From positions 496,001 to 560,000 of the forward strand of contig NZ_SWBQ01000001.1 in NCBI RefSeq assembly GCF_005116445.1: a stretch of 64,000 bases of DNA, given 5' to 3'. Every line of letters begins with the position of its first letter. The first letter of the stretch is position 1. The position numbers and the translations under genes were made by a program. Of the stretch, positions 14,420-30,445 are shown piece after piece. Below the pieces are notes generated by a model. That model searched no databases, had not been told where the DNA came from, and saw only the letters and a list, made by a program, of their open reading frames with translations. Origin of the DNA: Pedobacter frigoris (GTDB lineage Bacteria; Bacteroidota; Bacteroidia; Sphingobacteriales; Sphingobacteriaceae).

Positions 14420-15367
14420 ATGAAACATATTGAATGGAAATATCTAGTCGGCTTACATAAGCTTTATACAGATGGAAAAACCAAATTGAAAATCCTAAAT
14501 AATGATTATATTAATTTGATATTATTTAAGCAAAAGAAACTGATCAGGTTTAAATCAGGTAATCATTCCATTATTGAAGCAAACCAACGATATACTGAAT
14601 TCTATAAACTAGAACTATTAGATACGCATAATTACTATAATACTTTTTTTGAGCAGTCAGGAATAGAAAATAATGCAAAGAAAACTTTTACTCAGGAGGA
14701 CCTGGAGGCTCTGATGTTTGTTTACTACAATAAAAAAGAACTTCAAGAAAAACTGACAACAGTGAAAAAATTCTCTGCAAGAGTATTTAGAAATGAGAAC
14801 TCAAAGTACCTAGAAAATAAGCCAAGCCTAAAAACTGCAGTTTTACAACTATTAGAGGTTAATGAGTTTCCGGAGAAAGATCCTAAAAATCAACAGTGGA
14901 GATTTGTTATTGATTGTGATAATCCTAAAGCTATTGTATTATGTGAAAATCTAGATTGCCTTAAAATACCAGTTGAGTATAAGAAGAATAATATCGAACT
15001 ATGGTATGTAGGAGGTAATAACACAAAGCCTTTGCAGGATATCCAACAGGATAAACTGCAATTACCTATTTATTATTTTTGTGATTGGGACTATGCTGGA
15101 CTGAATATTTATTCGAAGGTTAAAGAAATCTTTCATAATAAAAATAAGGAAATACAAATAATACAACCACCGGCAAATGCCAAAAGACTTCCTGTTGGCG
15201 TTAAGCACCATAAGAGTAAATGGAAAAAGGAAGATTTTTCAGGATTGACAGAAGGTAATTTTAGTCAAGAGCAGGTAGATTTTATAAATCAACTTATTTC
15301 CGATAATGAGTGGGTAGAAGAGGAGTCGATGGACCTTATAAATTTACTAGATGCCGACTTAAGCTAA
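14420..15367 (+). CDS. jetD: JetD-like Toprim nuclease subunit
   Basis: A 315-residue protein with an N-terminal arm/winged-helix region and a Toprim fold. The expected catalytic glutamate is in AIVLCENLDC (Glu176), and the metal-binding aspartates are in YYFCDWDYAGL (Asp222, Asp224), matching the topoisomerase VI-A-like Toprim of JetD/MksG. In characterised systems JetD cuts plasmid DNA after the condensin has extruded it. It is the last gene of the operon; catalytic residues look complete. A new promoter follows at 15386, so the next pair is probably a separate unit. Confidence 0.82.
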   Translation: MKHIEWKYLVGLHKLYTDGKTKLKILNNDYINLILFKQKKLIRFKSGNHSIIEANQRYTEFYKLELLDTHNYYNTFFEQSGIENNAKKTFTQEDLEALMFVYYNKKELQEKLTTVKKFSARVFRNENSKYLENKPSLKTAVLQLLEVNEFPEKDPKNQQWRFVIDCDNPKAIVLCENLDCLKIPVEYKKNNIELWYVGGNNTKPLQDIQQDKLQLPIYYFCDWDYAGLNIYSKVKEIFHNKNKEIQIIQPPANAKRLPVGVKHHKSKWKKEDFSGLTEGNFSQEQVDFINQLISDNEWVEEESMDLINLLDADLS

Positions 15368-15385
15368 TGTAAATCATTGTAAGTT

Positions 15386-15393
15386 TATATTTG
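15386..15393 (+). promoter_or_regulatory. Candidate promoter of the DUF3800 gene pair
   Basis: TATATTTG matches the TAnnTTTG -7 element exactly and lies 114 bp before the DUF3800 start. Another match at 15496 overlaps the start codon and cannot drive it. The intergenic stretch is AT-rich, and no clear -33 element was identified. Confidence 0.4.
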
Positions 15394-15506
15394 ATGCAAA
15401 ACTTACACCAATTAGGCAATTTTTATAGTTGCTAATAACACAATGTCTTGTCCTGAATTTGCTTATTGTTTTTGAAAAATGAACTGAAAATAGATTAGAT
15501 TTGCAG

Positions 15507-16217
15507 ATGACATTTAATCTGTTCCTAGACGAGAGTTGCCATTTTGAAAAGGACAATTCCTCGGTAATGTGTATTGGGTATATTAAGGTGCCCGAAGCAT
15601 CATATCAGAAGCTATATGAATGCATCCGCAGTCTGAAGCTCGAACACAAGTCTACCTTTGAGTTGAAATGGAACAAGTTCTCCAATTCTAGGTTACCTTT
15701 TTATAAGGCACTTGTCGATCTTTTCTTTGACTCTCCCCTGGAATTTCGTTGTATTTTGGTCAAATACAAGGATCGCCTCTCACATGAAGAGTTTAATGGC
15801 GGTTCGCACGAAAATTTTTATTATAAGATGACCTACTTTCTTCTAAAGCCAAACAACCTCGGTTCAGATTATAAGGTCTTTTTGGATGTCATCAATACGC
15901 GCGGTAAGGAAAGGCTGAACAAGATACAGGAAATTTTCAGGCACTTGCACAATGGCGAATCCCCCTTTGTTTCATTTCAGCATTTGCACACGGAAAATCT
16001 TTTTTTCCAGCTCACTGATCTCTTTGTCGGCGCAATAACCTACAAATCGAGGGTTGTCGCTGGTGATTTTAAAGCTTCCCATCCTGCCAAGATGGAATTT
16101 GTCAAATATCTGGAAGAAAGGTCTGGGTATCTTTTGGAAGAGGGAACAGAGCCTTGGGAAACCAAGTTCAACATTTTTGATCATCAACCTAACATGAACA
16201 AGAATGTCGGTCAGTAA
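15507..16217 (+). CDS. DUF3800 family protein (RNase H-like fold)
   Basis: 236 residues from the ATG at 15507; a TTG two codons upstream is possible but less likely. The N-terminal FLDESCHF is the DUF3800 signature (FxDES), followed by the GYIKVPE strand and, at the C-terminus, FFQLTDLFVGAITYKSR with its LTDLFVG motif, an aspartate expected in the RNase H-like active site. DUF3800 proteins are common in phages, mobile elements and defence islands; their substrate is not established. The gene overlaps the following gene by 14 bp. The cysteine in DESC, where glycine is usual, is a small oddity. Confidence 0.8.
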   Translation: MTFNLFLDESCHFEKDNSSVMCIGYIKVPEASYQKLYECIRSLKLEHKSTFELKWNKFSNSRLPFYKALVDLFFDSPLEFRCILVKYKDRLSHEEFNGGSHENFYYKMTYFLLKPNNLGSDYKVFLDVINTRGKERLNKIQEIFRHLHNGESPFVSFQHLHTENLFFQLTDLFVGAITYKSRVVAGDFKASHPAKMEFVKYLEERSGYLLEEGTEPWETKFNIFDHQPNMNKNVGQ

Positions 16218-16713
16218 ACTTAAGCCATATTTTGAAGACGATATTTTAGATGCATCCTTCAATAAACCACAACTTGATGAGCTTTACGAGGTTTTCAAAG
16301 AGCACTTTGTTTTCGACCCCTTTGAAATCGATGGCAAGAGGATCAAGATCATCCATCAGAAATCTAGGGTAAAGCAATATTCGGAATATTCGGAAACTTT
16401 TGCGCACATCATATCTAGGAAAACTTATATTTTGGATGCCAGGATCTATGAATGTCAACGGGCCAACAGGATACATTGGATCAGACCTGTTTTACAGTCT
16501 CATCCCTGTAAGGACATCTTCTACTATAGGTGGAAGGACGATGAGGGTGTATGCAAACACCATTACTGGTTATTCGACAAGAATTTTATGGTAGTAACTG
16601 TAGATGTAAAACCAGATTTGAGGATTGTAACCACTTTCTGCGTTGACAATGATCAGAAATCTAAATTCTATGAACGATACAAGAATTTTCAGGAAGGAGA
16701 AGATTGTCTTTAA
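16204..16713 (+). CDS. Unrecognised partner of the DUF3800 gene
   Basis: A 169-residue soluble protein I do not recognise. It is rich in aromatic residues and has a compact beta-strand-like C-terminal half (FYYRWKDDEGV, HHYWLFDKNFMVVTVDV). No signal peptide, membrane segment or nucleotide-binding motif is visible. Its ATG lies within the last codons of the DUF3800 gene, so the pair is translationally coupled and may act as a unit, perhaps a nuclease with an inhibitor or adaptor; that role is inference only. Confidence 0.6.
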   Translation: MSVSKLKPYFEDDILDASFNKPQLDELYEVFKEHFVFDPFEIDGKRIKIIHQKSRVKQYSEYSETFAHIISRKTYILDARIYECQRANRIHWIRPVLQSHPCKDIFYYRWKDDEGVCKHHYWLFDKNFMVVTVDVKPDLRIVTTFCVDNDQKSKFYERYKNFQEGEDCL

Positions 16714-17412: not shown

Positions 17413-19611
17413 TTAGTTCTCAGTATAGAGTTCAGGTACCCCGTTAAAAAAAGGTAAACATATAATTGCAATGGTTCCTTGCTGATCCGTACCGGCCTCG
17501 ATGGCAAAACTAGCTTTTTTACCAATCTGTTGTTTGTTGATCATGTCTATCCTTTCTTGGATAGAAGCCAGGCCCATTGACATTTCTTTAACACCACCCA
17601 TTACATTTTTATTTTCGATGTTCCCAATTCCTACGCCATTATCTTCCACTGTAATACGAATTTTATCTTCCTTTCTTGTTATTGTCACATTGAGATGGGC
17701 ATCTGGTTTTGGATTTACAATCAATCCATGTAAAATGGCATTTTCAATTAATGGTTGGATCAACATGGGTGGCAGGTATAAGGTTTTTAGCTGAATATCA
17801 TCTGCTACCGTAAATGTGTAAGTGAAAATATCATCGTAACGCATGGCTTCCAGCTCCGTATATAACATTAAAGCTTTCCATTCTTTATCTCCGCTTACTA
17901 AACTTTTTGTCGAATTTTCCAAGATCAGCCTACTCAATGAGGCAAATTTTTGTATTAGCCTGGAAGCTTTCCTTTTCTCGTTGTCCATAACATAGGCTTC
18001 AATTGAATTGAGGACATTGAATATGAAATGTGGGTTCATTTGTGACCTGATAGCCTTTAATTCGCTTTCTGATAATTGGTATTGTTGATACTGAAGTTCG
18101 CTTTTAAACTTCAATCGTCTAATCCGGTAAAGGTTTAAAAGGTAAATCAACACCGACATTAAAACAACAAGTGCCAAAATCCCGTACAACCATAATTGCT
18201 TTAACTCTAACTTATTTAATTTTTGCTGCTGCGAAAGTGCATTCACCTTACTGGCCTGTAACTTCTCTTTGTTCCTGGCGATTTGAAGTTGTTTTTCTTT
18301 TTCTTCAGATCTAAATTTTTCATTTTGCAACTGTACGGTTTGTAAATCTCTAAACTGTAACCCTTTTTGAATTTCGGCAGTGTTTAATGCCAATTGCAAT
18401 TGCTGTTGTTTGAGTTGCGCACCTGTCAATAGTTCCTTCTGTTTATAAGAGAATTCTTTTTTATCAAAATCAAACTGGATACCCATTCTGGTAATCTCAT
18501 TTTTCTTTTTGTCGTTACTGATGGTATCGGCAAATTTGGTGTATTGTTTATAGTAAAGCAGGGCACTATCGGGCATCTTCATCGCATCATAAAGTTCACT
18601 CAGGCCTAAACTGGCATCCCGTTTAAGCTCTGTAATATTTAGTTCGTTGCCTGTTTGTAGTGCTTTAAGTCCGTATGATTTAGCTTCTTTATAGTTACCC
18701 TTGCCCAGATAGGCTGCAGATACGTTTTGCATGTTAATACCCAAGCTCCTTTTGTTATTAGTCTTGGTATTAATTTCAATAGCTTTTAATCCATATATCA
18801 AGGCTAAATCATTGTTTTTTAGTTCGTTGTAATATGCTGAGAGATTTCCGTTGTCTCTCGCAGTTCCGCGTAAATCAGCTATAGAATCAGCAATTTTAAG
18901 AGACTTCTGGCTATATTTTATGGCTTCAGGAATGTTTTTGTTTTTAAATTGTATGATGCCGATGTTTGCTAAAACACTCGATTGACCAACATAATTTTTT
19001 AGTTTATGGTGTAATGCAAGTGATTTTTGATAATATTTCATTGCTTCTGTAAAATCTCCCATTTCGGTGTATACTATTCCAATTGTGCCTAAATCATTTG
19101 CAGCTTGTTGCTCATTTTTGTTTTTTTCAAATGATTTTAGCGCATCTAGTAAATATTTTAAGGCCTCTGGAAATTTAGACTGTACCAAATAGACTGTACC
19201 AATATTAGATAAAGCGGCTCCGATTTCTAAATCATTTTTTAATTGGAGAGATATGCTGAGTGCTTGGTTTAAAGAAGTCAACGCTTCTGTATACATGGCT
19301 AAATGAAAATGAATGATCCCTTTGATCCGATGGGTAGCAGAAACAATATTTTTATCTTTAATCTGGTTTTCAAAAGATAAAATTTCTTCTGTATACTTTA
19401 AAGCGGATTTTGGATTGTGTGGTAGAGTCTGCGTTGTCAGATCAAATAGAATTTTTGCTCTTACATCATCTTGTTTTGTATGGGATGCAGCACGTTTGAG
19501 CAGGGAATCAATTTTTTTAGTCTGTGCATAGCTATCTCTACTTCCCAGCAGAATGAGAGAAGTTAGTAAAGAAATGATATATACATTGAAAAAACTGAGT
19601 TTAAACTTCAT
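17413..19611 (-). CDS. TPR sensor histidine kinase, LytS type
   Basis: 732 residues from the ATG at 19611 (a GTG four codons upstream is possible). N-terminal signal/anchor, then about eight tetratricopeptide repeats (residues 40-360) exposed to the periplasm, a coiled coil, one membrane helix (LWLYGILALVVLMSVLIYLL) and a His_kinase domain: QMNPHFIFNVLNSIEAYV with the phospho-accepting histidine near residue 528, and ATP-binding boxes ENAILHG, VEDNGVGIG and MGLASIQERI. These kinases phosphorylate LytTR regulators. The only such regulator here is 10 kb away at 29723, with the secreted-protein genes in between, which it probably controls. Transcribed divergently from those genes. Confidence 0.9.
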   Translation of the reverse strand: MKFKLSFFNVYIISLLTSLILLGSRDSYAQTKKIDSLLKRAASHTKQDDVRAKILFDLTTQTLPHNPKSALKYTEEILSFENQIKDKNIVSATHRIKGIIHFHLAMYTEALTSLNQALSISLQLKNDLEIGAALSNIGTVYLVQSKFPEALKYLLDALKSFEKNKNEQQAANDLGTIGIVYTEMGDFTEAMKYYQKSLALHHKLKNYVGQSSVLANIGIIQFKNKNIPEAIKYSQKSLKIADSIADLRGTARDNGNLSAYYNELKNNDLALIYGLKAIEINTKTNNKRSLGINMQNVSAAYLGKGNYKEAKSYGLKALQTGNELNITELKRDASLGLSELYDAMKMPDSALLYYKQYTKFADTISNDKKKNEITRMGIQFDFDKKEFSYKQKELLTGAQLKQQQLQLALNTAEIQKGLQFRDLQTVQLQNEKFRSEEKEKQLQIARNKEKLQASKVNALSQQQKLNKLELKQLWLYGILALVVLMSVLIYLLNLYRIRRLKFKSELQYQQYQLSESELKAIRSQMNPHFIFNVLNSIEAYVMDNEKRKASRLIQKFASLSRLILENSTKSLVSGDKEWKALMLYTELEAMRYDDIFTYTFTVADDIQLKTLYLPPMLIQPLIENAILHGLIVNPKPDAHLNVTITRKEDKIRITVEDNGVGIGNIENKNVMGGVKEMSMGLASIQERIDMINKQQIGKKASFAIEAGTDQQGTIAIICLPFFNGVPELYTEN

Positions 19612-19862
19612 ATTCCTTTTCACGTTGTTTTTAATGGAACTGCTTTCTATTATATCAAAGTAACATATAAATATACCAAATGATATTAGGCTTTAATCGT
19701 TCGTCTTACAGTTCCGCTCATTTAAAATACCTATTCACTCAACATTTAAAATAGTGCAGTAAAATTACCGCTTAATGTCCTATTTGATAAGCTGTAACCA
19801 CACGATTTTTTGGTCTTTTTGCTATAGTCTTTAGTCCCTGCCTGCGGCATGCAGGTTTCCGC

Positions 19863-19949
19863 TTCCCTCAACTTATGCTACCCTTCACTCATTAAAATAA
19901 CGCTTTCAATCATTGTCTTAAAATTCTAGTAATAAGGTGAATATGTTTG
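19863..19949 (+). promoter_or_regulatory. Promoter P1 with 21-bp-phased repeats (candidate LytTR site)
   Basis: Two 10-bp repeats, TTCACTCATT (19884) and TTCAATCATT (19905), start exactly 21 bp apart. A weaker third (TTCCCTCAAC, 7/10) lies a further 21 bp upstream at 19863. TATGTTTG, a perfect -7 element, starts at 19942, 37 bp after the start of the last repeat. The same arrangement recurs at P2 and P3. Two-turn-phased direct repeats are the known geometry of LytTR-domain binding. The rest of 19612-19862 shows only a short GC-rich inverted repeat (CCTGC...GCAGG near 19837). Confidence 0.65.
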
Positions 19950-19995
19950 ATTAAGAAGCTATAATCGAAATCCATTCAACATTAAAAATATTATT

Positions 19996-20985
19996 ATGAA
20001 AACGAACCTTAAAAATTTATTAAGAATATCATTATCACTTTGTCTTTTAATCGTGATAAGTATCAATACTAACGCTCAAGAAGGTAAAAAATTAATCAAA
20101 AAGAAAAAAGTAGATACTACGGAAGGTAAGATTAAACCCATTATTACCTCGCCTGTGGCTGGCTCTACCGTAGATGGTCCATTTGTATTGGTAGGTAAAG
20201 CTGAACCAAATACCACGGTTAATGTAATTGTATCGCCCATTTATCAATTGCCAAAAAGTACAACTGGTAAAACGGTTTTAAGGGTTAGTACACCACTGCA
20301 CGAACCACAACAGTTTACTGCTAAAGCAGATGCGAATGGCGTTTGGCAAAGCCGATTGGTGGAGGTGCAGTATGATCCAAAAGCAACAAATAAAAGAATT
20401 TTTGCATCTGTTAATCAAATATGGGGTTCGAAAGTTATACAGAGTGGCAACACCGAATATTTCGCCTCACCTAAATTAACAATGATTGTGGGAACAATTA
20501 AAGTTCCTGCAAAACCAAAGGAAGAAGAGAAATCTTCAGGACAACCTGAAACAGATGAAGGGATAGTTAAAGGTGGTAGCGTTATGCCATTTCAAATTTC
20601 ATCCCCAAAAAATAATAGATATGTGGCGCATGATGATTTTAGTATTGCAGGCGTGGCAGCACCAGGAGCAACAGTTAGGGTAGAAGTGCGTTACTTTGGC
20701 TATAGAAGTAAATCTAATGTAACTATCCGTAATTATGGTCCTGCTTTTTTACCTGGGGTTGACAAGAATACAACAGTGGTCAACGATGCACTTTGGACTA
20801 CTTTTACCGTAAGAAGTAACGGAGGGATTTGGGGAACGGGCTATATCGAATTTATTAAAAAGATTGATGGCTACTCTTGCTGGGCAAACACGTATACCAT
20901 TACCGCAAGTTTAGTAAATGAAAATGGCAAATTGGTACGACCAGTTAAGGTAAATGTTACCCGAATGAAAACCAAAGCAATATAA
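19996..20985 (+). CDS. Secreted protein with two Ig-like repeats
   Basis: A 329-residue exported protein; the signal peptide ends near NTNAQEGKK (residues 24-32). Two homologous beta-sandwich modules follow: one beginning ITSPVAGSTVDGPFVLVGKA (about 49-68), the other beginning ISSPKNNRYVAHDDFSIAGV (about 200-220). Both contain the (S/T)SP...G...V.(V/I).GxA.P..TV.V pattern of bacterial Ig-like domains in surface adhesins. A related single-module protein is encoded at 27822. It is the first gene after promoter P1. Function unknown; probable cell-surface or periplasmic role. Confidence 0.7.
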   Translation: MKTNLKNLLRISLSLCLLIVISINTNAQEGKKLIKKKKVDTTEGKIKPIITSPVAGSTVDGPFVLVGKAEPNTTVNVIVSPIYQLPKSTTGKTVLRVSTPLHEPQQFTAKADANGVWQSRLVEVQYDPKATNKRIFASVNQIWGSKVIQSGNTEYFASPKLTMIVGTIKVPAKPKEEEKSSGQPETDEGIVKGGSVMPFQISSPKNNRYVAHDDFSIAGVAAPGATVRVEVRYFGYRSKSNVTIRNYGPAFLPGVDKNTTVVNDALWTTFTVRSNGGIWGTGYIEFIKKIDGYSCWANTYTITASLVNENGKLVRPVKVNVTRMKTKAI

Positions 20986-21038
20986 ATAAACTGATCATAA
21001 AGAGTTTGTTTTTAGGTATTTAAGAAGCAACTAAGCAA

Positions 21039-21695
21039 ATGAGAACAGGAATATTTTTAGCACTGATGCTAGGTATGTTAAACTTAGCTAGTGTAGCGCA
21101 ACAATTGCCTACCTGTATAGAGCAACTTAACAGGAAATCGGATATAACTACTACCAAATTTGAACGTGTTATTACACTTAAAGGAAATCGTACGGTGTAT
21201 GAATTTTCGATAACTAGTAAACGCGAATGCATCCATTGTGCAAGAGGGACTATTTTTTACGATGGCAATTGTAACGTTGTAGCATCTTTTATCACTTCAA
21301 GAGGATTCAAAGGTTTTGTAGAGGATGGTTATACGGCTGCAGAGCTCGGTTATCTAGGTTACCCCAACATCAAATATCGACCTAAAGAAGATCCTTTACC
21401 CAGTTGTATAGAGAAAGTATTGGTCAATGCCGATTCTTTAAACAAGGCAGGTGTAAGTAAGATTGTACAAGTGCGTATGAAGGATAAGATTTTATACGGC
21501 TTCGAACATCTTATAGACCCTAAATTGGCCAATTGTAAAGATTGTCCGAGATCTATTGTTTACTATAATGCCGATTGCAAACCAGAGGTTACTTTTAGGG
21601 TAGGCGGTATTGCAGGTGTTAAAGGTAATAATGGTTATACCGGGACCGATTACAATAGCAAACAAATCTTAAACATTTTATGGCGTACGAAATAA
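21039..21695 (+). CDS. Secreted cysteine-containing protein with internal duplication
   Basis: A 218-residue exported protein with a signal peptide ending near SVAQQ (residues 17-21). The mature part is two homologous halves: CIEQLNRK...CIHCARGTIFYDGNCN (24-80) and CIEKVLVN...CKDCPRSIVYYNADCK (125-190). Each has four cysteines in the same order, suggesting a disulfide-stabilised module present twice. The family is not recognised. It follows the Ig-like gene by 53 bp and precedes a lipoprotein gene, all behind promoter P1. Confidence 0.6.
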   Translation: MRTGIFLALMLGMLNLASVAQQLPTCIEQLNRKSDITTTKFERVITLKGNRTVYEFSITSKRECIHCARGTIFYDGNCNVVASFITSRGFKGFVEDGYTAAELGYLGYPNIKYRPKEDPLPSCIEKVLVNADSLNKAGVSKIVQVRMKDKILYGFEHLIDPKLANCKDCPRSIVYYNADCKPEVTFRVGGIAGVKGNNGYTGTDYNSKQILNILWRTK

Positions 21696-21741
21696 CAATT
21701 TGAAATACTTATTTCAATCTATAATTCTTAAAATCATAATC

Positions 21742-22428
21742 ATGAAAAATTTAAAAAACAACATAAAATATGTCATCATCTTTTTTTTCATATTATTGGC
21801 TTCCTGCCAGAAAGACGAAGTTGCAAAAGAAACAAAAGATGAACAACCAATTAATTTGGCTGACTATTATATCATTGGTAGAAAACCTGCACAACTCTCC
21901 AACGGACAAACGGTACAAATACCTTACCTCATTAATTTTGATGAATATGGGAAAGCAAATTTTTTAAGAGAAAGTGCTAAGCCATTTACGTTTAAGGATG
22001 GCAAAATTAAGATTAGTGATGCAATGGTTTTTACCATCAAAGACAATGCAATAACGGCTTACGAAGATGTGATAAAACGCTATCCATTTACAAGTTATAG
22101 TCTTCAAAAGAAGCCAACTACCAATCAATTCTATGGAAATTCATATCAGGGTAACTGGACTAATGTGGCAAAAACATTTTCGGTGTTTAAGTTTAATTCG
22201 GCTACCTACGAGGAAAAAACTGGTGCAATATATGCATTTGCAGGTAAGTATACTTTGCTTGGTAATATTGCTGCAATAAGCGATACTGAAGATTACGCTG
22301 CTGATAATTTTGCCGAATATACTATTGTGCTGATTGATGGAAAGTTGGAAGTTACCTGCCGCAAAAATAATTTAGTAGGTGCTGGGTCAGAAACATTTAC
22401 CTACGGTGTATTTACCAAAGTTCCATAG
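21742..22428 (+). CDS. Lipoprotein, paralogue of the 23896 and 28292 genes
   Basis: 228 residues from the ATG at 21742, chosen because it gives a standard lipoprotein signal MKNLKNN...ILLASCQKD; a start 14 codons upstream would spoil the signal. The mature protein resembles the products at 23896 and 28292: an opening (D)YYIIGRK / KYSIVGKL, a central DGKIKISDAMVFTIKDNAI-like strand set, and a TNQFYGNSYQGNW / TNQLEGKNFKGSW segment. This is a local paralogous family of predicted beta-rich lipoproteins with no known function. Last gene of the P1 unit. Confidence 0.65.
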   Translation: MKNLKNNIKYVIIFFFILLASCQKDEVAKETKDEQPINLADYYIIGRKPAQLSNGQTVQIPYLINFDEYGKANFLRESAKPFTFKDGKIKISDAMVFTIKDNAITAYEDVIKRYPFTSYSLQKKPTTNQFYGNSYQGNWTNVAKTFSVFKFNSATYEEKTGAIYAFAGKYTLLGNIAAISDTEDYAADNFAEYTIVLIDGKLEVTCRKNNLVGAGSETFTYGVFTKVP

Positions 22429-22450
22429 ATAATTTATTTAAATAAATTAG

Positions 22451-22537
22451 TTTACTCATCTCAAATCATAACTCACTCATTATTACCTAGCGTCCAATCA
22501 TTCCCATAAAATACTGTGTAGAAGGTATATATGTTTG
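22451..22537 (+). promoter_or_regulatory. Promoter P2 with three 21-bp-phased repeats
   Basis: Repeats TTTACTCATC (22451), CTCACTCATT (22472) and TCCAATCATT (22493) are spaced exactly 21 bp. The -7 element TATGTTTG begins at 22530, again 37 bp after the start of the last repeat, with 27 bp between repeat and box as in P1 and P3. Downstream, GAGTAAGC resembles P1 (GATTAAGA) and P3 (GATAAGC). It would drive the five-gene run 22576-26277. Confidence 0.65.
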
Positions 22538-22575
22538 AGTAAGCAAATTAGCTATGAACATTAAAACTAAAAACC

Positions 22576-23328
22576 ATGAAAAAATTACTAATCATTCCAA
22601 TGTGTATCTTATTAATCGTTCTATCGTGTAAAAAAAACAAAACGCCTGCCGACGAAAAAGAAGTGGTTAAAGGAAATATTAAACAAGTTGTGGAGACTGT
22701 AAATGGTATCACTTACAAAATTTTTACGGATTTAAACACAACCAATTTTAAAGGGATTTTAGTTGTGGGAAGCGGTAACGAAGAAAACAATCCATCGGAA
22801 GGCGCAATAAATGGTGCAGCAGAAACTGCCTTATGCGAAAAAGCAGCAGCCAATGGTTATGCAGCGGCAATTGTTAAATATCAAAAACCTCCGGCAGGTG
22901 CCGATTGGAATAGCAGGGCAAAATTAATAGGTGAAGATTTTAATAGAGCTATTGTAGGTATTGCAGGCAAGTACGGTATCGATAAAAGTAAATCGGTAGT
23001 GGGTGGTTTTTCTTATTCCTCTAATATGTTGTTTACTGATATCTCTAGCAATAATATGACCTTGAGTTACTGTAAAGGCCTGGTGGCTGCTTGTGGAGGA
23101 GGTGGTGCTTGGAATGCCCAAAATTTTAAAATTCCTATTTATGCCATTAACTGTAGTAACAGCAACCAAGATGGCGAATATTATGGCAAAGGCCTTTACG
23201 ATCAAATTCCAGCCAATTCAGCTATAAAAGCCAAAAGTGAAGGTGTAACAGACAATAATTGCAATACCCATTGTGGTGGCGATTGGACCGATAAAATGTA
23301 CAATAAAATGGTGTATTGGTTGCAGTAA
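22576..23328 (+). CDS. Lipoprotein with alpha/beta-hydrolase fold
   Basis: A 250-residue lipoprotein (lipobox in LIVLSCKKN, residues 14-22). The mature part reads like an alpha/beta hydrolase: an ILVVGSGNEEN opening strand, a helix with AKLIGEDFNRAIVGIAGKYG, a nucleophile-elbow candidate VGGFSYSSN (serine at about residue 145), and a late histidine in NTHCGGDW. It is probably a surface-anchored esterase- or peptidase-like enzyme, but the substrate is unknown and the elbow is not a strict GxSxG. First gene after promoter P2. Confidence 0.6.
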   Translation: MKKLLIIPMCILLIVLSCKKNKTPADEKEVVKGNIKQVVETVNGITYKIFTDLNTTNFKGILVVGSGNEENNPSEGAINGAAETALCEKAAANGYAAAIVKYQKPPAGADWNSRAKLIGEDFNRAIVGIAGKYGIDKSKSVVGGFSYSSNMLFTDISSNNMTLSYCKGLVAACGGGGAWNAQNFKIPIYAINCSNSNQDGEYYGKGLYDQIPANSAIKAKSEGVTDNNCNTHCGGDWTDKMYNKMVYWLQ

Positions 23329-23362
23329 CCTAGTTTATAATTAATTATTAAGGAATTAAATC

Positions 23363-23842
23363 ATGAAAACATTTAAAATATTATCAATACTAGTATTGCT
23401 TATAAGTTTTATGGCTTGTAAAAAAGATAGGGCAATTGTTGAAGTAAAAAATATAGGTACGATTACCACCCTGGGCGAAAAAATGGATATTACCGAAGCT
23501 GTTTACACACATAGTTCTAAAGACAATAGTTCACTTATTACTTTATTCACAGAAAATCAACGGTTTGCACTCATATTGCGTTTTACCCACGTAAGTTTTA
23601 ATGAAATACCAGCTGGAAGTTTCACCTTAACAAAAGTTTTCCCTAATGATGCTAAAATATATTTTAATGATGGCTTAACATTTATTAGCCATGCAAATGG
23701 CGAAACTGCAGACTATTTTACCTCTGGGAATGTAGAGATTATTAAAAACGGAGATCGCTATAAAATTACAGCAAATGTAATGACAGCGAAAGGCGCCACA
23801 ACATGTAGTTACGAAGGCACATTAACCATACAAGGCTCTTAG
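23363..23842 (+). CDS. Small lipoprotein, unknown function
   Basis: A 159-residue predicted lipoprotein: signal MKTFKILSILVLLISFMACKKD with the lipobox cysteine at 19. The mature protein is beta-rich (ITTLGEKMDITEAVYTH, FALILRFTHVSF, GDRYKITANVM). Such short proteins resemble lipocalin-like or calycin-type folds seen in many Bacteroidota lipoproteins, but no family is recognised. The signal sequence is nearly the same as that of the RCC1 lipoprotein at 24533, suggesting duplicated upstream parts. Confidence 0.55.
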   Translation: MKTFKILSILVLLISFMACKKDRAIVEVKNIGTITTLGEKMDITEAVYTHSSKDNSSLITLFTENQRFALILRFTHVSFNEIPAGSFTLTKVFPNDAKIYFNDGLTFISHANGETADYFTSGNVEIIKNGDRYKITANVMTAKGATTCSYEGTLTIQGS

Positions 23843-23895
23843 TTAAAATAGCAAATCAAAATAGTTCTCCTCACCAAAATAAAAACTTAAACATC

Positions 23896-24495
23896 ATGAA
23901 AAACATATTAAAAATGCTACCCATATTATTGTTAACAATATTGCTAAGCTGTAAAAAGAAAGATCCTAAACCAGAGGTTTTTGATATTACCAAATATAGT
24001 ATTGTAGGAAAGCTATCTACTGGATATCCTTACATAATTACCATAGAAAGTGACAAAGCAGTTTTGACATCCTATAGTGTTAGCGATGGAAAATATACTT
24101 ATACAGATGGTGTTTTAAAGCTAAATTTTAATGGAGGCGAAGTTATTTGTTCTTTCACTATAGAAAATGGAAGCATCAAAGCCTACGTAGGTCCAGTAAT
24201 AATAAACACTTATGATTTGGTAAAAATACCAGCAACCAACCAGTTAGAAGGTAAAAACTTTAAAGGAAGTTGGAACGGTTCCGGTTATTTAACTCAGGTT
24301 AAATTCACAGGTGCAAAATACACAGAAATTACTAATGGTCAGCAAAATGAAGTTAATTATACCCTAATAAATAACCTCGCTGTTAAAAAAGAGGAGGGTA
24401 TTAACATCACCGTATTTATGATGTTGAATGGTAAATTGGAGGGAGGTCGTTATAGATATCCAAATACCGATTGGGGTACTTTTATGAAAGAGTAA
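23896..24495 (+). CDS. Lipoprotein, paralogue of the 21742 product
   Basis: A 199-residue lipoprotein with lipobox LLSCKKKD (cysteine at about 18). It shares with the 21742 and 28292 products the order DITKYSIVGKL, a DGVLKLNFNGGEVICSFTIE strand set, an ATNQLEGKNFKGSWNG segment and a C-terminal MLNGKLE. Function unknown; probably a beta-rich outer-membrane-anchored protein. In the P2 unit, 53 bp after the preceding gene. Confidence 0.6.
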   Translation: MKNILKMLPILLLTILLSCKKKDPKPEVFDITKYSIVGKLSTGYPYIITIESDKAVLTSYSVSDGKYTYTDGVLKLNFNGGEVICSFTIENGSIKAYVGPVIINTYDLVKIPATNQLEGKNFKGSWNGSGYLTQVKFTGAKYTEITNGQQNEVNYTLINNLAVKKEEGINITVFMMLNGKLEGGRYRYPNTDWGTFMKE

Positions 24496-24532
24496 AATTT
24501 CTCATTTGATCCATTTTTATAAAACTTAAATC

Positions 24533-25639
24533 ATGAAAACATTAAAAATAGCATCAACGCTCTTATTGCTGTTGAGCTTTATGGCGTGCAAAAAAGATAA
24601 AGATAATAATGAAACCGAGAAAAATAACAAGGTTATAGGCATTTACGCAGGCCCGCAATTTTCCATGTTTATTAAAGCCGATAACACCCTATGGGTAACT
24701 GGCACCAACAAATATGGCCAATTGGCCGATGGCACTACCAACCAAATTACTAAACCAAAAATGGTGATGAGCAATGTGGCCGCAGTTAGTTCTGGTGGGG
24801 CACATACCATGATTTTAAAAACAGATAAAACGCTTTGGGGAGTAGGCTATAATTCGAGCGGACAATTGGGAGATGGCACCACCCAATCTTCGCCAAGCCC
24901 AAAGCAAATTATGATAGACGTAAGTGCGGTAAGTGCCTCTATTAGTGAAACATTTGTAATAAAAACGGACAAAACACTTTGGGCTATGGGCCACAACTAT
25001 TACGGCGAGCTAGGCGATGGTGCTACCCAAATGGTTAAAACACCCAAACAAATTATGAGCGATGTGTTAGCCGTAAGCGCAGAGTATAATTATACCTTAA
25101 TTTTAAAAACAGACCATACACTTTGGGCTACTGGGTTTAACGATTATGGCAAATTTGGCGATGGCACCACCACCAATTCTACGATATTTAAATTCATTAT
25201 GTCTGGTGTAAAAGCCATTAACGCAACTGTAGATGCCAGTCTAATTTTAAAAGATGACCATACACTTTGGGCAGTTGGCGATAATTCCAGTGGTAAATTA
25301 GGTGACGGAACTTATGATAATATCAGTTTCCCAAAACAAATTATGGCAAATGTAGCCACCATGAGCTCAATGGCGCACTATACTTTAATTTTAAAAACCG
25401 ACGGTACACTTTGGGCTACCGGAGATAATAGAGCCGGTCAGCTAAGTATAGGCACCATGGCAAAGATTAACTCACCTCAATTGGTAACTGACAATGTAAA
25501 AAGCATAGCTGCAGGTGTAGACCATTCAATCATTTTAAAAACAGATCATTCAGTTTGGCTTACCGGCTATAATGTATATGGGCAATTAGGAGATGAAGCC
25601 GATAAATACAGATTTCTTTTCAAAGAACTTAAACTTTAA
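24533..25639 (+). CDS. RCC1-repeat lipoprotein
   Basis: A 368-residue lipoprotein (lipobox LSFMACKKD). The mature part consists of seven RCC1-type repeats of about 50 residues, each with the pattern LKTDxTLWAxGxNxxGQLGDG followed by a KQIMSDVxAVS linker. RCC1 repeats form a seven-bladed beta-propeller, used for protein-protein or ligand binding. The lipid anchor places it on the outer membrane; no catalytic residue is evident. It belongs to the P2 unit and is one of two propeller-like repeat lipoproteins in the cluster (see 26462). Confidence 0.82.
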   Translation: MKTLKIASTLLLLLSFMACKKDKDNNETEKNNKVIGIYAGPQFSMFIKADNTLWVTGTNKYGQLADGTTNQITKPKMVMSNVAAVSSGGAHTMILKTDKTLWGVGYNSSGQLGDGTTQSSPSPKQIMIDVSAVSASISETFVIKTDKTLWAMGHNYYGELGDGATQMVKTPKQIMSDVLAVSAEYNYTLILKTDHTLWATGFNDYGKFGDGTTTNSTIFKFIMSGVKAINATVDASLILKDDHTLWAVGDNSSGKLGDGTYDNISFPKQIMANVATMSSMAHYTLILKTDGTLWATGDNRAGQLSIGTMAKINSPQLVTDNVKSIAAGVDHSIILKTDHSVWLTGYNVYGQLGDEADKYRFLFKELKL

Positions 25640-25650
25640 AAATATCAATC

Positions 25651-26277
25651 ATGAAAAAATATATATTTTACATCGTTTTAATGAGTTTAAGCTATGTTGG
25701 CCTAGCTCAAGAATTAACACCACCACAAGTAGAGGGTTATGTTAGTGGAAGTACAATTAAGGTGGGTTTTCCTTTTGCTATAAAGGGGGTTCCATTTTCA
25801 CAAATACCAGGTAGTGTGTGGTATAGCCACGGAAGGGTTATTGCTGAGTTACAAATGTCTTATTATATGGAAGGAGATGACAAGATGTACGTAACTAAAC
25901 TAGTTAAAAGTGTAAACCCCAGACAAACAGTTGGGAGTTGGGCTTTGGCTGATTTTAAGATTGAACCAAAACCTTATCCAATACCCAATAGGAATGTAGT
26001 GAGCGAGAAAACTACCTACCTACTTTCTGTTTATCAAAATAATAATTATAAAAGCTCAAAAATGTGGTATGCAAATATTGTTCTAATTAATCCGATCATC
26101 CGACCTCAAAATATACCTGATCAGAAATTAGGTTCTGAAATCATACTTCCAAAAATTCCTGATCAAAAAAAAGGGCCAATAAAAGTTCATCCAAAAGATA
26201 AGGTAATTCTTAATCCACAACCTATTCCACCAAAAATTAAAAGTAATAAGTACTCAGGTCAGCTTAATAAACAATAA
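25651..26277 (+). CDS. Secreted protein with Pro/Lys-rich tail
   Basis: A 208-residue protein with a Sec signal (cleavage near GLAQEL, about residue 20). A beta-rich N-terminal domain (GSTIKVGFPFAIKGVPF, WYSHGRVIAELQMSYY) is followed from about residue 150 by a low-complexity segment with short repeats IPDQKLG / IPDQKKG and PKDKVILNPQPIPPK. This tail may be a linker or wall-binding segment. No family recognised. Last gene of the P2 unit, 11 bp after the RCC1 gene. Confidence 0.55.
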   Translation: MKKYIFYIVLMSLSYVGLAQELTPPQVEGYVSGSTIKVGFPFAIKGVPFSQIPGSVWYSHGRVIAELQMSYYMEGDDKMYVTKLVKSVNPRQTVGSWALADFKIEPKPYPIPNRNVVSEKTTYLLSVYQNNNYKSSKMWYANIVLINPIIRPQNIPDQKLGSEIILPKIPDQKKGPIKVHPKDKVILNPQPIPPKIKSNKYSGQLNKQ

Positions 26278-26320
26278 ACACAATGCAAACGAATTTCTTA
26301 TTAACGAAGAAATATTTTTT

Positions 26321-26407
26321 CTAACTCATTGTATAGATCCATTCGCTCATTAGTAAGTGTTCTTCAATCATTGCCTCAAAAAGTAAAACTCAAGATAGAT
26401 AAGTTTG
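26321..26407 (+). promoter_or_regulatory. Promoter P3 with three 21-bp-phased repeats
   Basis: Repeats CTAACTCATT (26321), TTCGCTCATT (26342) and TTCAATCATT (26363) are spaced exactly 21 bp, and TAAGTTTG (TAnnTTTG) begins at 26400, 37 bp after the start of the last repeat. Repeat sequence, repeat phase and distance to the -7 box all match P1 and P2. It drives the repeat lipoprotein at 26462. Confidence 0.65.
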
Positions 26408-26461: not shown

Positions 26462-27505
26462 ATGAAAAATTTTAAAGCCAATTTTTTTATCAAACTAGTG
26501 TCTGTTGTATTTTTTACAACATCATTTATTTCTTGTAGTAAGAAAAATGAAAATACACCTAAAGAAATGCAGACCAATGTATACGTTGCAGGGCATGAGA
26601 CTAAAGCGGGCTTGTGGACCATTGCCAAAGTGTGGAAAAACGGTGAACCTACAAATTTAACTGATGGAAACCATGATGCCGCTGCACTTTCTGTTTATGT
26701 TAGCGGTAATGATGTATATGTTGCAGGTTACGAATTTATAGGGAAAAGGATAGCAAAGCTATGGAAAAATGGTGTGGCTACCAATCTTAGTGATGACAGT
26801 AAGAATGCCACTGCACTTTCTGTTTATGTTAGCGGTAATGACGTGTACGTGGCAGGTTATGCCAGTATCGGAAACATATATGTAGCCAAAATATGGAAAA
26901 ACGGTGTGGGTACAGATCTTACTGATGGTACTCGCAATGCCTATGCGTTGTCTATTTATGTATCAGGTAATGATGTATATGCGGCAGGTTATGAAGCATC
27001 TGGAAATGTAAATGTAGCCAAAGTATGGAAAAACGGTATAGCTACTAATCTTACCGATGGCAGTAGTACAGCCATAGCACAAATTGTTTATGTAGCAGGT
27101 AAGGATGTATTTGTATCAGGTTATGAAACCTCAAGCAGGAGTATAGCCAGAGTCTGGAAAAATGGTGTGGCCACAAATCTTTCTATTGGGAACCAAAATT
27201 CTTCCGCAGAATCTGTTTATGTGGCTGGTAATGATGTGTATGCGGCAGGATATGAATTTCTTGGAAATGCGTTTGTAGCTAAAGTATGGAAAAACAATGT
27301 GGCGACAAATTTAACCGACGGAAGCAGAGATGCACGAGCACGATCCGTGTATGTTGCAGGAGATAACATATACGTTGCAGGCTACGAAAACAACGGAAAC
27401 AAAACTGTAGCTAAAATGTGGAAAAATGGAGTGGTTACAAACCTAACCGATGGCAGTCAAGATGCACGGGCACAATCTATATTTGTTACACAAACAGAGA
27501 AGTGA
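26462..27505 (+). CDS. Lipoprotein with seven VYVAG/AKVWKNG repeats (propeller-like)
   Basis: 347 residues from the ATG at 26462, which gives a clean lipoprotein signal (MKNFKAN...FISCSKKNE); an ATG 19 codons upstream is less likely. The mature protein is seven tandem repeats of about 43 residues with the pattern VYVSGNDVYVAGYE...AKVWKNGVATNLTDG. A seven-fold repeat of short beta strands suggests a beta-propeller. DNA repeats are well conserved, so the gene is prone to repeat-number change. Function unknown; probably surface-exposed binding. It has its own regulated promoter (P3). Confidence 0.72.
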   Translation: MKNFKANFFIKLVSVVFFTTSFISCSKKNENTPKEMQTNVYVAGHETKAGLWTIAKVWKNGEPTNLTDGNHDAAALSVYVSGNDVYVAGYEFIGKRIAKLWKNGVATNLSDDSKNATALSVYVSGNDVYVAGYASIGNIYVAKIWKNGVGTDLTDGTRNAYALSIYVSGNDVYAAGYEASGNVNVAKVWKNGIATNLTDGSSTAIAQIVYVAGKDVFVSGYETSSRSIARVWKNGVATNLSIGNQNSSAESVYVAGNDVYAAGYEFLGNAFVAKVWKNNVATNLTDGSRDARARSVYVAGDNIYVAGYENNGNKTVAKMWKNGVVTNLTDGSQDARAQSIFVTQTEK

Positions 27506-27821: not shown

Positions 27822-28280
27822 ATGAAAATTTTAATCATGATCAGTTGCATTTTATTTGGCGGCTTACAAACAGCCCCTGTAAAAATTAAGGTAAAGCCCG
27901 AAGCAACTCAAATAATACAATCTAGCCACGTACCTCGCATCCAAATCTATTTCCCTAAAAATAATCAAAAAGTTAGGGGAAGATATTCAATTTACGGCTA
28001 TACAGAGCCTAATGCTAAACTTAAAGTGCAAATCACAAGCAGTTATTATGAAAAGCTAGTAGATACTCAAAAAGAAACAATTAGCAAAGGAAAAGGACCA
28101 ATAAACAGGATAAATAGGACATACCCGTTAACGGCTAATAAAATTGGCTATTGGGAGCTAAAAAATATTGATTTAACAAACAGGAATTGGGAAGAAAATT
28201 TTACCATTAAAGCAATAGTTGATGGGCGCACAGCAACCATTAGGGTTTACGATGATACCCATCCTGTTGTAATTGATTAA
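27822..28280 (+). CDS. Small secreted Ig-like protein
   Basis: A 152-residue predicted secreted protein. The short signal MKILIMISCILFGGLQ is followed by a single module resembling those in the 19996 product: IQIYFPKNNQKVRGRYSIYG, TEPNAKLKVQI and a final strand pair. Probably a paralogue reduced to one Ig-like domain. Function unknown. It lies 11 bp before the interrupted lipoprotein gene and is probably co-transcribed with it. Confidence 0.58.
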   Translation: MKILIMISCILFGGLQTAPVKIKVKPEATQIIQSSHVPRIQIYFPKNNQKVRGRYSIYGYTEPNAKLKVQITSSYYEKLVDTQKETISKGKGPINRINRTYPLTANKIGYWELKNIDLTNRNWEENFTIKAIVDGRTATIRVYDDTHPVVID

Positions 28281-28291
28281 TGTAATCTTTA

Positions 28292-28948
28292 ATGAAAGTA
28301 TTTATGAAAAATCTAATATGCTTATTCTTAATGGTTTTATTTGCCTCGTGTAAAAAGGATAATGCCTCCATTAATGTGGATATCATGCAACATTATATTG
28401 CTGGCAAATTTACACAACTGCAAAGCCCGCAAGAGCCTTTCGCACTAATACCAATGTCGGCAAACAAGGCCATATTTGTATCGGTAAACGGAAAACTGGA
28501 AGTTGATTATACTTTTGAGAATAATAAATTTACCACAAGTATAAACGGGAATTCTTTGAGTTGCGATATTAATAACGGCATTATAGAAAATATAGCAGTA
28601 ATTTCTAATGCCCTAAGTATTCCTGCAGCAGTTTTAAACAAAAAAGAAGATGCCGGACTGGAATTAGCGGGCAAACGGTTTGAAGCGCCCTTAAACAGAT
28701 TAGATAACGGAGCAGTTCTTTTTGATAATTATTATTTCAGATTTAATGCTGATGCCGCACAATTCAATTACAGCGGTAATCCTACTTAAGGAAATTACCT
28801 GGTCACAACAAAAACTTATGAAAAACTAGCCGATGGTTGCTTTTACGATAAGCAGGCAATAGCTTTTGGGGTTATGTTAAACAATAAACTAGAAATAACA
28901 GCTAAAATAGGTAACAACTATGCCCTTTTTAGCGGAACGAAACTTTAA
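28292..28948 (+). pseudogene. Lipoprotein gene interrupted by an in-frame stop
   Basis: Lipoprotein (FASCKKDN lipobox) of the 21742/23896 family. A TAA at 28787-28789 ends the first frame after 165 codons. The same frame then stays open for 52 more codons to a second TAA at 28946-28948, and that downstream part encodes the expected family C-terminus (GNYLVTTKTYEKLADG, GVMLNNKLEITAKIG). The paralogues have exactly such an LNGKLE-containing end. This is a nonsense change rather than a frameshift. The truncated protein could still be exported. ATG 28304 is an alternative start. Confidence 0.7.
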
Positions 28949-28961
28949 TATATTTAACGAT

Positions 28962-29633
28962 ATGAAAACTTTAAAATTAACCTTAAGTCTGTTTGCCATC
29001 TTTTTAGTGCTATTTGCTGCTTGTAAAAAAGAAAAGAAAGAGGCAGCAAATACAACAGTAACTGCCGAAGATTTATTGGGCTATCAAATGTTTTGGGCTT
29101 TAATATCTCCAGCGAAAACCGCTGACTTGCGTTTACTTTATTTTAATAAAGAGGGGACTGAAGTTAAAGCTATTTTAGATGGGGTTACCTTTAGAAATAT
29201 TAAAACCGTTAAAATGGAAAATAATACCTTTAAATTCGATTTTCAAGATAATGGAAGTGTTGTTTACACTTTCGAATTTACTAAAAAAGATGGCGTGATC
29301 TCGTTAGTTTCTAGCAAATTTTATAATGTAAATAACCCAGCCTACTCAGCTTCTATACCCTCGATGTTGCCATTATCTAAATTTATATCAGTAAAAAATA
29401 AAGTTTTTAAAAGTAATGATGGTGCCAACAGTCACATCGTCACTTTTAGTACTGATACTTGGCGCTATAGTGCGTATCCAAATGTGGCTGGTACATATTA
29501 CGAATGTGGTACAGGAGGATGGAAAGGTAGAATTGCTGGACTAGATTATATTGGCCTCCAAGTTGAACAAGATGTACTACTTTTGACAGTTCAAAAAAAT
29601 GGAGAAAATATGATAGGGTTTGCACCTTATTAA
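28962..29633 (+). CDS. Lipoprotein, unknown function
   Basis: 223 residues from the ATG at 28962, preferred over one 14 codons upstream because it gives a regular signal (MKTLKLTLSLFAIFLVLFAACKKEK, here described only; lipobox LFAAC). The mature part is beta-rich with LRLLYFNKEGTEVKAIL, FKFDFQDNGSVVYTFEFT and a C-terminal LLLTVQKNGENMIGFAPY, similar in organisation to the other local lipoproteins. It starts 13 bp after the interrupted gene's final stop and precedes the response regulator by 89 bp. Confidence 0.58.
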   Translation: MKTLKLTLSLFAIFLVLFAACKKEKKEAANTTVTAEDLLGYQMFWALISPAKTADLRLLYFNKEGTEVKAILDGVTFRNIKTVKMENNTFKFDFQDNGSVVYTFEFTKKDGVISLVSSKFYNVNNPAYSASIPSMLPLSKFISVKNKVFKSNDGANSHIVTFSTDTWRYSAYPNVAGTYYECGTGGWKGRIAGLDYIGLQVEQDVLLLTVQKNGENMIGFAPY

Positions 29634-29722: not shown

Positions 29723-30445
29723 ATGTTAAAAGCGGCTATATTAGATGATGAGGTTAAGGGAAGCAAACTTCTTAGCCAAAAGCTCGAGTTTTTTGAAGAC
29801 GAGTTGCAGGTTGTTGGGATTTTCAATCAACCCACTAAAGCTTTGGACGCAATTATTGAGCTTAAACCGGACGTACTTTTTTTGGATGTTGAAATGCCTG
29901 GAATAAATGGCTTTCAGTTTTTAGAACGTTTGGGCAGTTTTGATTTTGAAGTAATTTTTACTACCGCATACGATAGCTACACATTGGAGGCACTCCGATT
30001 AAGTGCGGTAGATTATTTGCTTAAACCAGTTGATGAGGAAGAACTGAAAACCGCCATTACCCGATTAAGAAAACGTGTAGCAGAAAAATCTAACTTTAAG
30101 ACCTTAAAAAAAGAAAAAGTTAATAGCAACAGGTTGGCGCTAACTACCGCCGAAGGTGTATATATTGTTGATAAGACCCAAATTATCAGGGTTGAAGCCA
30201 TGAGCAATTACAGCGTGTTTATATTGGCAGGCAGTAAAAAAATAGTAGTTTCCAAAACCCTAAAGGAATTCGAAAACATATTAGATGATGAATTTTTTAC
30301 CCGTATCAGTCGTTCAATGATCATCAATTTAACTTACGTAGTTAAATACCGTAAAGGAGATGGGGGAACTTTAGAGCTTTCTGATGGTTCAGAAGTAGAG
30401 GTATCAACCCAAAGAAAAGATATTCTATTACAAAAGTTATTTTGA
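29723..30445 (+). CDS. LytTR-type response regulator
   Basis: A 240-residue regulator. The receiver domain (1-120) has the acidic pocket in ILDDE (residues 6-10), phospho-acceptor Asp55 in LFLDVEMPG, the TTAYD switch threonine and the KPVDEEE lysine. A LytTR DNA-binding domain follows (about 137-238: VDKTQIIRVEAMSNYSVF, ISRSMIINLTYV). LytTR domains bind pairs of short direct repeats on one DNA face, matching the 21-bp repeats at promoters P1-P3. The cognate kinase is most likely the LytS-type protein at 17413. The usual adjacency of kinase and regulator is broken here by the target genes. Confidence 0.9.
   Translation: MLKAAILDDEVKGSKLLSQKLEFFEDELQVVGIFNQPTKALDAIIELKPDVLFLDVEMPGINGFQFLERLGSFDFEVIFTTAYDSYTLEALRLSAVDYLLKPVDEEELKTAITRLRKRVAEKSNFKTLKKEKVNSNRLALTTAEGVYIVDKTQIIRVEAMSNYSVFILAGSKKIVVSKTLKEFENILDDEFFTRISRSMIINLTYVVKYRKGDGGTLELSDGSEVEVSTQRKDILLQKLF

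Follow-up and report, generated by a model that had tools for sequence, protein, structure and literature searches.

Which regulator reads three similarly built promoters that follow one another in the genome of Pedobacter frigoris? They lie in a window of 64,000 nucleotides (assembly GCF_005116445.1, contig NZ_SWBQ01000001.1, positions 496,001 to 560,000; coordinates below are those of the window, meaning the whole stretch of DNA that was analysed) and precede genes for secreted proteins and lipoproteins, flanked by genes for a LytS-type histidine kinase and a LytTR response regulator. A first-pass annotation, made from the sequence alone, had suggested that this pair turns on the secreted proteins as a unit. 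Overall, we consider it probable (about 0.82) that the triple repeats constitute the operator of the LytTR regulator encoded at 29723, which, driven by the kinase, would activate operons of secreted proteins and lipoproteins. Comparative genomics lends good support to reading the repeats as a putative LytTR operator.

Architecture and rarity of the three promoters

All three promoters are located on the forward strand and contain a 10-bp element repeated three times. In promoter 1, the direct repeats occupy positions 19863-19872, 19884-19893 and 19905-19914 (TTCCCTCAAC, TTCACTCATT and TTCAATCATT, respectively), being followed by an A-tract in the -33 position (19920-19923) and by the -7 box TATGTTTG (19942-19949). 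Promoter 2 has its repeats at 22451-22460, 22472-22481 and 22493-22502 (TTTACTCATC, CTCACTCATT and TCCAATCATT), its A-tract, again in the -33 position, at 22508-22511 and the same -7 box, TATGTTTG, at 22530-22537. The repeats of promoter 3 are found at 26321-26330, 26342-26351 and 26363-26372 (CTAACTCATT, TTCGCTCATT and TTCAATCATT), with the -33 A-tract at 26378-26381 and the -7 box TAAGTTTG at 26400-26407. Both the steps of 21 bp and the distance of 37 bp from the start of the last repeat to the -7 box, as reported in the first-pass annotation, proved exact in all three cases. The most degenerate repeat is the upstream copy, while the box matches TAnnTTTG, the -7 type of the Bacteroidota primary sigma factor, exactly in each promoter. 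Repeats of 10 nt separated by spacers of 11 nt, found in 3/3 promoters, fit the description of LytTR operators, which as a rule have repeats of 9-11 nt and spacers of 11-13 nt (excerpts of PMC4847170).

We scanned the whole 4.69-Mb genome for the composite pattern CTCATT-N15-ATCATT-N27-TANNTTTG. Three exact matches were obtained, which are the three promoters of the window; no site had one or two mismatches, and 14 had three, compared with 9 matches in all for the reversed control pattern. The first-pass annotation had named wide occurrence of the pattern upstream of unrelated genes as a reason to abandon its proposal; with three exact matches only, the pattern is not widespread and this objection is removed. 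Likewise, none of 300 Markov-1 random windows contained a composite match, against three observed. Taken separately, the parts are unremarkable: the two-repeat pattern with two mismatches allowed occurs 23 times in the window against 15.4 expected, a value reached in 7 of 100 shuffles and hence at the level of chance, and the -7 box alone is not enriched there (88 against 85.4 expected). The signal is the complete arrangement of repeats, phase and box, not its single parts.

Related lipoproteins are encoded at 21742, 23896 and 28292, so duplication did occur at this locus, and the three promoters might have arisen recently by copying of a single upstream region and be under no special control. 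We give this explanation practically no weight. Identity among the three promoters amounts to 32% in the inter-repeat spacers versus 85% in the repeat and box columns (74% in those of the latter that were left unfixed by the search pattern), which argues against recent copying; the same contrast, 0.34 versus 0.76, is seen among 31 aligned sites (alignment A2). Mere duplication was rejected on these grounds.

Conserved geometry and the missing -33 box

How far is this arrangement kept in other genomes? From 26 places listed for 145 genomes of the same genus (2 for the reversed control), we picked by eye, on sequence, 13 seed sites from eight genomes; the 13 unpicked places were set aside as likely chance or coding matches, and two of them (G033:C43 and G067) turned out to be related sites. 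The choice of seeds was not formally blind to the orthologue results presented below, while the genome-wide scan and the exact-match counts are independent of it. The 13 seeds align without gaps over 95 bp. Outside the fixed pattern, they share CT.A in repeat 1, TTC at the opening of repeats 2 and 3, the A-tract, and TAAG right after the -7 box; identity between sites reaches 73% in the repeat and box columns left unfixed, against 35% in the spacers.

The spacing is mostly fixed as well. When 1215 combinations of spacings were left free to compete, with a repeat matrix trained on the 13 seeds, 56 arrays were recovered at 42 loci (two arrays in the reversed control). The combination 21/21/37 was chosen by 36 of the 56, 21/21 by 47, and 20/21/37 by 4.

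Promoters of the Bacteroidota primary sigma factor include a -33 box, TTTG or TTG. Among the 31 aligned sites, no TTTG and a single TTG occur in positions -37 to -26; AAA is present there in all 31, and AAAA occupies the identical four columns in 26. Of the 88 TAnnTTTG boxes of the window, most of which are due to chance, 20 have TTG at -37 to -26 and nine have AAAA near the position of the A-tract. The presence of an A-tract in place of the -33 box suggests that an activator is involved. In Flavobacterium psychrophilum, TAnnTTTG extends from -12 to -5 (excerpt of PMC9723704); by analogy, with the transcription start placed on that scale, the Pedobacter repeats would start at about -91, -70 and -49.

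The same regulator might instead bind the repeats as a repressor, or act in both ways depending on its phosphorylation state. A precedent is CoxC, a LytTR protein that binds three direct repeats and represses (excerpts of PMC11347149). However, the CoxC repeats overlap the -35 box, whereas the last repeat of the window promoters ends 27 bp upstream of the -7 box, and the absence of TTTG at -33 from 31/31 aligned sites is what one expects of an activator-dependent promoter. Repression, alone or alternating with activation, is thus an unlikely mode for these sites, and we favour activation.

A variant was observed at L157 (5727), L158 (9667) and L175 (6510), where a TTCTTTTG-like -7 box is followed by GTTAAC rather than TAAGTTTG-nTTAAG; this sub-type may be a second class of promoters.

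Regulator, kinase and promoter occur together

The product of 29723 (29723-30445, forward strand) is a LytTR response regulator by its domains, PF00072 (9.8e-20) and PF04397 (1.8e-14), both above the Pfam cut-off. The gene at 17413 (17413-19623, reverse strand), divergent from promoter 1, encodes a LytS-type histidine kinase with PF06580 (2.9e-20) and the HATPase_c domain PF02518 (4.7e-06). By eye, the kinase has a signal-like N-terminus and one membrane segment. A multi-transmembrane LytS input domain of the BtsS/YpdA type was not found in it; Pfam at E 0.001 gives N-terminal TPR repeats instead, the domain scan of kinases having covered the one in the window. Domain counts agree with the earlier statement that these two are the sole LytTR regulator and LytS kinase of the window, the whole genome holding 18 LytTR domains and 16 PF06580 kinases. 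When solved structures were searched with the LytTR protein, the three alignments listed covered the receiver domain.

Orthologues of the regulator are present in 24 of the 145 Pedobacter genomes at 63-100% identity, for example in P. panaciterrae (95%), P. foliorum (88%), P. jeongneungensis (80%) and P. miscanthi (79%). In the remaining 121 genomes, no match is stronger than E 4.8e-51, and those listed have 34-42% identity; some relative of the protein exists in 145/145. The orthologue in one of the 24 genomes is a piece: at G002:C45:9009-9557 (L175), the reading frame meets a stop after about 180 residues, and three promoter sites persist on the same contig.

The promoter follows this orthologue group closely. 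The 13 seeds served to build a 95-bp profile, R1; searched at E 1e-4, it matches 19 of the 145 genomes, 17 of which have the orthologue (Fisher p 9e-15). Without the eight seed genomes, the orthologue is found in 10/11 matched genomes versus 7/126 unmatched ones (p 4e-10), and all five genomes that contain the exact pattern possess it. A second profile, R2, comprises 31 sites chosen partly near orthologues and at E 1e-5 matches 23 genomes, 21 of them with the orthologue. Among 399 genomes sampled from the family, the R2 site (E 1e-5) was detected in 35, the orthologue (1e-60) in 60, and both in 32; outside the genus of the window, 14 of 16 motif genomes carry the orthologue. Both R2 and the stretches read were partly picked for holding an orthologue, and the better tests of association are therefore the genome scan, the exact pattern, R1, the loci of distant relatives and the kinase-core search.

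The core of the 17413 kinase (E 1e-45) was found in 25 of the 145 genomes, namely in 24/24 genomes with the regulator and in G054 (p 2e-26), with two matches each in nine genomes. The matches sit in open frames of 605-797 or 1029-1048 amino acids, save for two shorter ones of 202 and 325 amino acids.

Could another LytTR paralogue, or some other transcription factor, bind the repeats, the 29723 regulator being merely linked to them? The genome offers candidates with its 18 LytTR domains, and 21-bp phasing is a general trait of these regulators, so that the geometry would be the same whichever of them binds. Three observations make such a scenario improbable. The strong sites follow the orthologues of 29723, which 17 of the 19 motif genomes carry, though relatives are present in every genome. 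Loci of 79 more distant relatives lacked a site, with a best score of 7.4 versus 10-77 for sites; only six of these loci (about 3.7 kb each) come from the same genus, the rest from other groups, and some were matched by the receiver domain alone. Finally, 23 orthologues share invariant residues of their own in the LytTR domain, [SN]RS versus HRQ in six aligned paralogues and BtsR, together with KYRKG/KYKKG-[DE]GGT. Hence, the 29723 orthologues remain the best candidates for the binding protein.

Several points nevertheless weigh against the 29723 regulator as the reader of these sites. At E 0.01, R2 weakly matches 75/145 Pedobacter genomes, above what its rough E-values promise, and many of these weak matches (E 1.2e-5 to 0.01) belong to genomes without the regulator; the best of them, G050:C29:111262-111339, just misses the threshold at 1.2e-5. 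Such matches could be chance, operators of other LytTR proteins or diverged sites. Conversely, 28 of the 60 orthologue genomes of the family sample have no profile match at 1e-5, and one of the 24 Pedobacter orthologue genomes, G142, showed no site either in the stretch read or in the profile search. Strong sites without the orthologue occur in G067 and G128 within the genus, and sites without it in G312 and G320 of the family sample. No gene follows the sites of G067 and G128, and a kinase-sequence fragment of 81 amino acids is retained in the latter; both look like relics of decayed cassettes. In addition, the LytTR gene of the window has no repeat array directly upstream, another of the 18 LytTR domains could bind too, and the genome counts, compared by plain Fisher tests, are phylogenetically non-independent.

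Two loci deserve separate mention. At the G067 site (G067:C1:3068283-3068372, L182), no cassette follows the triple-repeat promoter, and the genome lacks a regulator orthologue. In bacterium A37T11 (L074, 9730-10720), a LytTR protein of 90% identity has a triple-repeat promoter of its own; by eye, no lipoprotein gene lies between the two, only a short stretch resembling the end of one, which points to a cassette that was transferred or has collapsed.

The mechanism that we propose is as follows. A LytS-type kinase, either the 17413 product or a relative with the same core, would phosphorylate the 29723 regulator, which would then bind the three direct repeats, two helical turns apart, from the same side of the DNA. 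The regulator would bring RNA polymerase carrying the primary sigma factor to the -7 box, replacing the missing -33 contact and thereby switching on the operons of secreted proteins and lipoproteins. In several genomes, it would also activate the gene that encodes it. Direct binding, phosphotransfer, activation over repression and co-transcription are the steps that we infer here.

The first-pass annotation did not recognise the motif as described, and this has to be revised. Neither LytTR systems nor 21-bp phasing nor triple repeats are new. The yjiY probe of Escherichia coli YehT/BtsR, printed in PMC4847170, contains three copies of [GA]CC[GA]CT[TC]A at steps of 20 and 21 bp. BtsS/BtsR (YehU/YehT) is likewise a LytS/LytTR two-component system, and its site shares the core CRCTCA with the Pedobacter repeat. 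However, BtsS is a 7-transmembrane pyruvate receptor (excerpt of PMC10653868), unlike the Pedobacter kinase with its TPR repeats, and the target of BtsR is a transporter rather than a lipoprotein cassette with a Bacteroidota-type promoter. The Pedobacter regulator does not qualify as a BtsR orthologue: BtsR aligns with the group but lacks several of its invariant residues, and the kinases differ in architecture.

The motif is also close to that of RcoM1 of Paraburkholderia xenovorans, for which excerpts of PMC11347149 give the consensus TTCNNGCA in triple repeats with a spacing of 12-13 bp; it differs from the Pedobacter TTCRCTCA at one fixed position. Both RcoM1 and CoxC (Afipia carboxidovorans) bind, through LytTR domains, three direct repeats spaced by roughly two turns of the helix. 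Unlike the Pedobacter regulator, they are single-component, CO-responsive proteins instead of receiver-domain response regulators and act at proteobacterial promoters, CoxC as a repressor. E. coli YpdA/YpdB (excerpts of PMC4847170), like AgrA, ComE and VirR, resembles the Pedobacter system in joining a receiver to a LytTR domain and in repeats of 9-11 nt with spacers of 11-13 nt. The half-site sequences of YpdB, AgrA, ComE and VirR are different. Two repeats are the rule for these regulators, and a TPR kinase is not known from systems of the YpdA/YpdB, AgrA, ComE or VirR type. No such operator was found described for Bacteroidota in the literature searched, where nothing on LytTR in Pedobacter came up and the few papers on Bacteroidetes or Bacteroides bear titles on other matters; the absence is weak, since the search was at the level of titles and covered few subscription journals.

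Target genes and a possible modular network

What, then, do these promoters control? Across 41 fetched loci, 47 sites scored above 10 (the best score of the same matrix reversed was 9.4). Simple script patterns were used to recognise signal peptides and kinases, and the sites were tallied by hand; L155, whose contig begins 106 bases before the regulator gene, was excluded. The first gene downstream encodes a predicted lipoprotein or signal-peptide protein at 35 sites and the LytTR regulator at six; three sites have no gene, two are ambiguous and one precedes another kind of gene. A PF06580-type kinase with the NPHFxFN motif is divergent from 22 of the 47 sites, one kinase in G035 being counted twice and the 81-residue fragment of G128 being included. 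In G040, G045, G059 and G077, the layout is a kinase, a divergent promoter, six or seven genes for secreted proteins and lipoproteins and, as the last gene of the row, the LytTR regulator. This last position would give positive feedback.

A second kind of target was encountered at five of the 47 sites: a secreted protein of 570-571 amino acids, followed, in the four loci where the next gene was seen, by a protein of 1640-2413 amino acids. One such giant protein was scanned and gave a sub-cut-off match to TANFOR (TIGR02542, 2.7e-12, 46.8 bits versus 67). In six genomes (G025, G071, G035, G026, G078 and G048), at least one site is placed on another contig and, going by contig coordinates, a long way from the LytTR gene; control of such a site, if it exists, has to be in trans. 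No gene was called after the off-contig site of G078, that of G048 precedes a short non-secreted frame, and in G116, G002 and G033 neighbours are possibly hidden by contig breaks.

Thus, the proposal that the regulator and kinase drive the secreted proteins is supported, with the correction that they do not always form one pair and one unit: the co-occurrence of promoter, orthologue and kinase and the six sites before LytTR genes speak for it, whereas several genomes have sites on several contigs and more than one kinase. It is tempting to suppose, though we hold this quite tentatively and would not bet on it, that each genome has a single LytTR regulator in charge of several dispersed cassettes, which encode rapidly changing surface lipoproteins or TANFOR-like giants. 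With each cassette would come a separate triple-repeat promoter and, often, a separate kinase, the sensors (of the TPR or the ~1040-residue type) being exchangeable on a common kinase core. Any of several external signals could then switch a shared surface programme. What is unusual about the system is its modularity, namely repeated lipoprotein cassettes and several kinases with usually one regulator. Bacteroidota can carry many LytTR/LytS-type pairs, and we offer for one of them a concrete candidate operator, a near-rigid promoter geometry without a -33 box, a regulator and a kinase family. Together, these predict the regulon of the genome and would tie variable operons of surface lipoproteins to a signalling system.

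In the window, the cassette genes all lie on the forward strand. Promoter 1 is followed by genes for two predicted secreted proteins, of 329 amino acids (19996-20985; homologues in six other fetched loci) and 218 amino acids (21039-21695), and for a lipoprotein (21700-22428, likely start 21742). The first gene after promoter 2 (22576-23328) encodes the core cassette lipoprotein, the most widespread family among the cassette genes of the window; related proteins, 55-82% identical, are encoded in 18 fetched loci. Its product has no Pfam family and gave nothing significant in a profile search of solved structures; a structure prediction from five sequences had a mean pLDDT of 42 and no usable model. 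Without a family match, a G-[FY]-S-[FY]-[SA] elbow noticed by eye hints that it may be alpha/beta-hydrolase-like. Next come lipoproteins of 159 amino acids (23363-23842) and 199 amino acids (23896-24495, related to 21742), a lipoprotein with RCC1-type repeats (24533-25639; Pfam PF25390/PF13540/PF00415) and a predicted secreted protein of 208 amino acids (25651-26277). Promoter 3 precedes a lipoprotein with repeated YVAGYE/VWKNG units of about 45 residues by eye (26462-27505), for which neither a homologue among the open reading frames of the fetched loci at 1e-4 nor a significant Pfam match was found. Further genes for secreted proteins and lipoproteins (27822, 28292 and 28962; 27822-29633) lead up to the regulator. 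For most cassette proteins, Pfam and NCBIfam gave no usable function, weak sub-cut-off matches being ignored.

The lipoprotein frame at 28292-28948 is interrupted by an in-frame stop, after which it stays open for about 50 codons; it appears to be a copy from the 21742/23896 lipoprotein family in decay. Beside the cassette, on the side of the kinase gene, the 11174 product had no match and the 14420 product a weak one to JetD (Wadjet-like, 1.8e-05), while the 15501 and 16204 products match PDC-M04A/B, a candidate defence pair, strongly (9.7e-77 and 1.3e-60), making region 14420-16713 a candidate defence island adjoining the cassette.

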